Of a stretch of DNA of 64,000 bases, positions 53,808 to 55,352 are shown one piece after another; position 1 is the first letter of the stretch; the number at the start of each line of letters is the position of its first letter. This DNA is from Candidatus Terraquivivens ruidianensis (GTDB lineage: Archaea; Thermoproteota; Nitrososphaeria_A; Caldarchaeales; Wolframiiraptoraceae). The DNA is taken from the NCBI GenBank assembly GCA_023267975.1, contig JALNLA010000002.1, forward strand, positions 165,053-229,052, given 5' to 3'. A program made the translations under genes and the position numbers. Under the pieces are notes generated by a model. The model was not told the DNA's origin and searched no databases. It saw only the letters and a list, made by a program, of their open reading frames with translations.

Positions 53808-53909
53808 GCGGGGGTTGCCAAGCCTGGTCAACGGCGCAGGGCTCAGATTCCTTCATGATGGGATACCCTGTCCCGTAGGGGTTCGTGGGTTCAAATCCCA
53901 CCCCCCGCA
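53808..53909 (+). tRNA. tRNA-Leu(CAG), with a 17-base intron
   Basis: Acceptor GCGGGGG/CCCCCGC with A73; D-stem GCC/GGC and GG in the loop; anticodon stem CAGGG/CCCTG; class II variable arm TCCCGTAGGGG; T-arm GTGGG-TTCAAAT-CCCAC. The anticodon CAG is read with U33 and A37; the intron is 53848-53864, at 37/38. A bulge-helix-bulge forms: helix CTCA/TGGG (one G-U), 3-base bulges GA|T and AT|A cut after the second base. Confidence 0.92.
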
Positions 53910-54007: not shown

Positions 54008-54679
54008 GTGTTTCACATCCCGACGCCCGAAGAACTATTGATCAGTTTTGTGCTGGTAGGCTGGGTACTGTTCGTCAGCCTCTTCCTGACCAAGAAAACT
54101 TACGAGGCATTCGTTGCACGGGGATGTACGCATCATGTCGCCGTTTATTACAACAGGAAAATCATACACATACTTACTGGCGGATTGGTTGCCATCCTCA
54201 TTCCCTTGCTATACAAAAGCTTCGTACCCGTAGGCGTTATGGTTCTTTTTCTGGCGATCGGCAACTATCTACCGCATAAACAGAATAGGTTGTTTTACTG
54301 GTATCAAGTCGAGGAAAACATGTACGAAGTCCACTTTATACTGATGTGGGGACTAGTAATGATGATTGGGTTCTTAATAAACAACGTATGGGTCGCCGTA
54401 GTCCCAATACTCTTCATGAGTTTTGGAGATGGTGTGACGGGTATCGTGAGGAACCTACTCTATCGAAAGAGGACTAAATCGTGGTGGGGAAACTTAGCTA
54501 TGTTCGTAATATGTGCGCCGATGGCGTACGCGGTGTTTAACTTAGCAGGCCTTATATCTGCAACCCTTTCAAGCATCGTTGAGAGGTTTGAGTTTGGTTT
54601 AATTGACGACAACATAACCGTACCTCTTGTCGGCTTTGTATCCCTGCTACTTCTCACAGGCCCTCTAAAAATCATATAA
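54008..54679 (+). CDS. Dolichol-kinase-like membrane protein (SEC59/CDP-diglyceride family)
   Basis: A membrane protein of 223 residues, about six helices, with YYNRKIIHILTGGLVAI near the N-terminus and FGDGVTGIVRNLLYRKRTKSWWGNLAMF in the second half, the CTP-dependent polyprenol kinase/phytol kinase signature. It may activate the lipid carrier of glycans for AglB. Frame starts with GTG at 54008, 98 bases after the tRNA gene. Exact lipid unknown. Confidence 0.82.
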   Translation: MFHIPTPEELLISFVLVGWVLFVSLFLTKKTYEAFVARGCTHHVAVYYNRKIIHILTGGLVAILIPLLYKSFVPVGVMVLFLAIGNYLPHKQNRLFYWYQVEENMYEVHFILMWGLVMMIGFLINNVWVAVVPILFMSFGDGVTGIVRNLLYRKRTKSWWGNLAMFVICAPMAYAVFNLAGLISATLSSIVERFEFGLIDDNITVPLVGFVSLLLLTGPLKII

Positions 54680-54738: not shown

Positions 54739-54789
54739 TCAGACTGCCCGTCGAGTATCATGAATCAACTCGGACGTTGCTCATCATTC
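54739..54789 (-). ncRNA. C/D-box guide sRNA
   Basis: Every element of an archaeal C/D sRNA is present at the standard spacing: box C ATGATGA (54781-54787), 12-base guide GCAACGTCCGAG, box D' TTGA, 3-base spacer TTC, box C' ATGATAC, 12-base guide TCGACGGGCAGT, box D CTGA (54739-54742). A palindromic TATA box at 54811-54820 is about 26 bases from the 5' end. The D guide can pair with the universal 16S decoding-region GCCCGUC segment; its fifth base from box D predicts 2'-O-methylation of the C near E. coli position 1402. D' and C' boxes differ by one or two bases from consensus, as is common. Confidence 0.82.
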
Positions 54790-54810
54790 CATACTATTTT
54801 TGATGGTGGA

Positions 54811-54820
54811 TTTATATAAA
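54811..54820 (-). promoter_or_regulatory. TATA box of the C/D sRNA
   Basis: TTTATATAAA is palindromic and has no protein gene at a fitting distance on the plus strand. On the minus strand it lies about 26 bases upstream of the sRNA 5' end (near 54789), the normal archaeal spacing. Confidence 0.6.
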
Positions 54821-54875: not shown

Positions 54876-55352
54876 CTAAGGCTTCGTTATCATCGTCTTT
54901 GTCAAAGTCACGATCTCCGTTACTTTGGTGTTTTCCACGTCAACCTTTACTATCGCGCTCGCCGAATCTTTTCTTAACATTACGATAGCTCCTGTTGCCT
55001 TCATCGTGATGCTACCGTCCTCCTCTACTACGGCTTTCACTATCGGCCTTATGCCGATAACGCTATACCCATCGTTTAGTAGCCTCTGCACGTCTTCGTC
55101 ATTCTTGGCTATATTGAGCGCTTTGTCTTTAAAGCCCTCGCTGGCCTCGGCGAACCCAAAGCATCTTCCTCCAAGCATCATCTTATGCGGCAATCCATTC
55201 GGCATGATCTCTGAGTTTCCGTTGCTCAACGCTGGAAAGCCATTCTGATTTCCTTCCCCGTTGATAAACGGAGGCGTAGCGTTAACGGCGACAGAGTATA
55301 TTGCCATTATCGCAATCGCTACGGCGACTATGCTTAGCGACGCGATTATCAT
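54876..55352 (-). CDS. Exported PepSY-like protein
   Basis: A signal anchor or secretion helix (IIASLSIVAVAIAIMAIYSVAV) is followed by an Asn/Gly/Pro-rich stretch and a C-terminal domain. AKNDEDVQRLLNDGY, then VKAVVEEDGSITMKATGAIVML and SAIVKVDVENTKVTEIV resemble PepSY-like propeptide/inhibitor domains. It lies divergent from an ArsR gene. Function unknown; a secreted inhibitor or sensor is possible. Poly-T (54834-54847 on this strand) ends its transcript. Confidence 0.6.
   Translation of the reverse strand: MIIASLSIVAVAIAIMAIYSVAVNATPPFINGEGNQNGFPALSNGNSEIMPNGLPHKMMLGGRCFGFAEASEGFKDKALNIAKNDEDVQRLLNDGYSVIGIRPIVKAVVEEDGSITMKATGAIVMLRKDSASAIVKVDVENTKVTEIVTLTKTMITKP

Follow-up and report, generated by a model that had tools for sequence, protein, structure and literature searches.

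Does the short segment at positions 54739-54791 (minus strand) of the window, i.e., the whole 64-kb stretch of DNA analysed here, encode a guide RNA, and which rRNA nucleotides would such an RNA direct for methylation? The window comes from the genome of a hot-spring aigarchaeon whose closest named relatives are Candidatus Terraquivivens MAGs. Reading the minus strand from 54787 to 54739, we found a canonical dual-guide C/D-box sRNA with box, guide, and spacer lengths of exactly 7-12-4-3-7-12-4, the standard lengths given in the original prediction. It consists of box C (ATGATGA, 54781-54787), the D′ guide (GCAACGTCCGAG, 54769-54780), box D′ (TTGA, 54765-54768), a TTC spacer leading from box D′ to box C′ (54762-54764), box C′ (ATGATAC, 54755-54761), the D guide (TCGACGGGCAGT, 54743-54754), and box D (CTGA, 54739-54742). 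Together with the adjoining nucleotides, minus-strand positions 54790-54737 read GGA-ATGATGA-GCAACGTCCGAG-TTGA-TTC-ATGATAC-TCGACGGGCAGT-CTGA-CC. The terminal boxes have the form that defines archaeal C/D-box RNAs (RUGAUGA for box C and CUGA for box D), with D′ and C′ boxes inside; the latter two were assigned by motif match and alignment. Box D was invariant in a 30-sequence alignment, as was box C, from which genus g9 alone departs. In the sRNAs of that genus (L165, L166, L167, and L168 in G028, G041, G040, and G043, respectively), the C box is altered to GTGACGA or GTGAGGA, and the short GG/CC ends give way to a longer terminal stem rich in G+C (in G028, for example, GGGGC...GCCCC).

The C/D pattern occurred once when both strands of the window were scanned and in none of 200 dinucleotide-shuffled windows; the strict pattern matched no further C/D sRNA in the 64 kb. 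Rfam made no sRNA call at the locus at the gathering threshold. Several of its archaeal C/D families scored beneath their thresholds, the best being sR9 (21.8 bits, cut-off 36) and sR12 (20.6 bits, cut-off 38), and the sRNA thus scores as a member of no described Rfam C/D family. ARAGORN did not find the sRNA, and a blastn search against plasmids gave no match. Elsewhere in the window, an Rfam match missed by ARAGORN marks a tRNA gene of 102 bases (53808-53909, plus strand), which probably contains an intron.

The sRNA was present in 43 of the 44 genomes of the order (G000-G043). Searching 61 genomes by blastn yielded 35 positives, every one within the order, and a sequence model based on 30 of these added eight more; model matches in outgroups below ~16 bits were left uncounted, except for the one in G048, which was read by eye. 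The genome without a match, G014, is an assembly of 130 contigs that is 95% complete.

Two ORFs enclose the sRNA: a plus-strand ORF of 223 aa that ends at 54679 and a minus-strand ORF of 158 aa that ends at 54876. In genus relatives, too, the sRNA is bordered by relatives of at least one of these ORFs, and in the Candidatus Terraquivivens MAG L003, it has kept its place downstream of the same gene. The palindromic TATA box that had been proposed to precede the sRNA is confirmed as TTTATATAAA (54811-54820, minus strand), a probable promoter element. Its centre precedes the C box by ~28 nt, and this places a start 26-27 nt downstream of the centre at the C box or immediately 5′ to it. Among 39 sequences (the window plus relatives), 31 had their best AT-rich TATA-like 8-mer with its centre 24-32 nt upstream of box C, the distance required for a start at box C or immediately 5′ to it; individual elements were variable outside the genus. 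The 5′ end of the sRNA is probably at about 54788-54791, and its 3′ end is probably at or shortly past box D.

To find targets, we located the 16S and 23S rRNA genes in the same genome and scanned both for pairing with both guides. Each guide paired better with 16S than with 23S rRNA, and each, with its ~12 nt, places a nucleotide of the genome's own 16S rRNA opposite its fifth position from box D or D′. The D guide had been predicted to pair with GCCCGUC in the decoding region of 16S rRNA and to specify Cm1402. The pairing proved longer than that: 11 contiguous Watson-Crick pairs with ACUGCCCGUCG (own 16S positions 1392-1402), a run attained by none of 150 shuffled D guides. Within the full target, 1392-1403 (ACTGCCCGTCGC), the fifth nucleotide from box D is opposite C1396, which corresponds to E. 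coli C1402 (numbering checked by alignment). A mismatch between the D guide and C1400 was considered and dropped, as the genome's own 16S rRNA carries U1400 in place of the C1400 of E. coli and most outgroups, and the guide offers an A to pair with it. C1402 is a secure predicted target of the sRNA.

Does the guide follow its target through evolution? Both the sRNA and 16S rRNA were readable in 30 genomes, and guide positions 2-11 were fully paired (Watson-Crick or G-U) in 28 of them. G1405:C1496 is a near-universal pair of the decoding centre. Six genomes from two genera (g6 and g9) of family f2 carry A1405 with a compensating U1496 instead (G034, G022, G038, G025, G028, and G032; loci L132, L134, L137, L146, L150, and L152); their 16S rRNA reads GCCCATC with GAAGTTGTAACA, and the guide has U in all six. 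G1405 faced a guide C in 16 genomes and a guide U, forming a wobble pair, in six, while a guide C was never found opposite A1405; these are counts of genomes and not of independent events, as covariation events were few and some were shared by descent. At position 1400, the order has U in 16S rRNA and A in the guide. The sRNA is thus both conserved and altered in step with its target, and this compensatory change, along with the pairing in its own genome, upholds the Cm1402 prediction.

Outside the order, scanning 398 genomes of the phylum for the C/D pattern gave a match in 51, compared to three matches for a reversed control pattern. Two genomes of family f20 (G067 and G081) had C1400 in 16S rRNA and G in the guide of a C/D sRNA, whereas G048 (family f9) had U1400 and a guide A; G238 had a similar sRNA with a guide G, its 16S rRNA not being recovered. 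The D guides of these RNAs (L171/L183 in G048, L217 in G067, L218 in G081, and L216 in G238) also face C1402, and their D′ guides are unrelated, which suggests independent origin or guide exchange. Pattern matches in G047, G091, G183, G208, G200, G205, G088, and G143 were discounted after inspection by eye, being probably coding sequence or fortuitous.

Pairing was disrupted in a few genomes. The 16S rRNA copies of G017 (L153) and G030 (L141) were mismatched with their own guide at 1400, and that of G006 (L120) with the D′ guide. The G030 copy, with the decoding site ACCGCCCATCAA, shared only ~79% identity with its family and is possibly of foreign origin. The G017 copy, which has C1400, was 94% identical to that of a congener. 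Foreign contigs, chimeras, or real divergence are possible reasons for the disagreement in all three genomes.

The target of the D′ guide, which the original prediction left open, is most likely G945 of 16S rRNA (E. coli numbering). The guide forms nine Watson-Crick pairs and one G-U pair with GGACGUUGC, within own 16S positions 905-916 (GGTGGACGTTGC), and its fifth nucleotide is opposite G909, equivalent to E. coli G945, where Gm is predicted. On pairing alone the match was not significant, with nine or more pairs reached by 12 of 150 shuffled guides, and many genomes have mismatches at two or three positions of the D′ guide beside box D′. As archaeal guides without a resulting modification have been reported (PMC4644070), the sRNA could methylate C1402 alone, with the D′ duplex only aiding rRNA folding or target binding. 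We consider such a single-target guide rather unlikely. The AACGTCC core of the D′ guide is near-invariant across the order in the alignment, and its position 5, the one predicted to specify the modification, is paired in readable genomes. In family f3, furthermore, the change is two-sided: U replaces C at E. coli position 947 in 16S rRNA (GGAUGUUGC) and A replaces G in the D′ guide (GCAAUAUCC), turning a G-C pair into an A-U pair. G945 is therefore retained as a probable second target, with the prediction of C1402 methylation being the more secure of the two.

A main target other than 16S rRNA, such as a tRNA or mRNA, seems highly improbable. Some archaeal C/D sRNAs do target non-rRNA molecules, and the pairing scan covered 16S and 23S rRNA only, but of these two, 16S rRNA is the better partner for both guides, and guide changes follow those in 16S rRNA. 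Still more remote is a chance motif or silent, functionless relic: expression is a prediction here, but the covariation already contradicts this reading, as do conservation of the sRNA in 43 of 44 genomes with a guide that tracks rRNA changes and the absence of the pattern from all 200 shuffled windows.

We thus assign a probability of about 0.92 to the locus being a standalone dual-guide C/D sRNA gene with its own TATA promoter, guiding methylation of C1396 (C1402) and G909 (G945). The genome encodes the required protein partners: the fibrillarin and Nop5 genes are adjacent, and there are two L7Ae-family genes, either of which could be L7Ae itself. We infer that the sRNA would be transcribed from its TATA promoter and bound by L7Ae, Nop5, and fibrillarin. 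The D guide would then pair with the decoding region, allowing fibrillarin to 2′-O-methylate C1396 (E. coli C1402), and the D′ guide with the 945 region, leading to methylation of G909 (E. coli G945). RsmI, the bacterial C1402 2′-O-methyltransferase, has the same target position as the sRNA but is a protein enzyme without a guide RNA. It was not detected in the genome by a search with TIGR00096; the same search gave matches in 12 of the 14 genomes used as controls, including two archaea, and family-level similarity alone is therefore no proof of RsmI.

The sRNA resembles archaeal dual-guide sRNAs of Sulfolobus, Pyrococcus, and Pyrobaculum (PMC4644070, PMC7994747) in its boxes, its 12-nt guides, the presence of two guides per RNA, its rRNA targets near functional centres, and the short 3-nt spacer between D′ and C′. 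Most Pyrobaculum dual guides have their two targets within 100 nt (PMC7994747), whereas those predicted here are 487 nt apart in the 16S sequence. In a survey of seven archaeal species, predicted methylation sites in helix 44 were called sparse (PMC4644070). The equivalent of E. coli Cm1402 in Pyrococcus abyssi, Cm1376, belongs to the P site; there, the mRNA phosphate is held by the m6A1469-Cm1376 pair (PMC7005279). In Arabidopsis, a U43-type C/D snoRNA guides the corresponding 18S methylation, Cm1645, whose counterparts are Cm1639 in yeast and Cm1703 in human (PMC11542601). That snoRNA and the sRNA share C/D guidance to the same rRNA nucleotide, a likeness at the guide that may be convergence on the same target. 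A literature search, with subscription journals outside its scope, found no description of this sRNA in aigarchaeota. Cm at 1402 has precedents in Pyrococcus and eukaryotes; what is new is this sRNA within the known archaeal C/D class.

All three domains 2′-O-methylate C1402, bacteria using a protein enzyme and eukaryotes a guided machine; for an uncultivated archaeal order, the locus now provides a guide to this site that is specific and testable. There is perhaps an even chance that this order-wide guide for a near-universal modification co-evolved with A1405:U1496 and U1400, and that, given the unrelated sRNAs of neighbouring lineages, C1402 guidance was re-invented or swapped between sRNAs. 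Covariation between guide and rRNA is evidence for their interaction without any experiment, and it directs attention to relatives with an altered decoding-centre sequence, of which the A1405:U1496 pair is the most interesting by-product.
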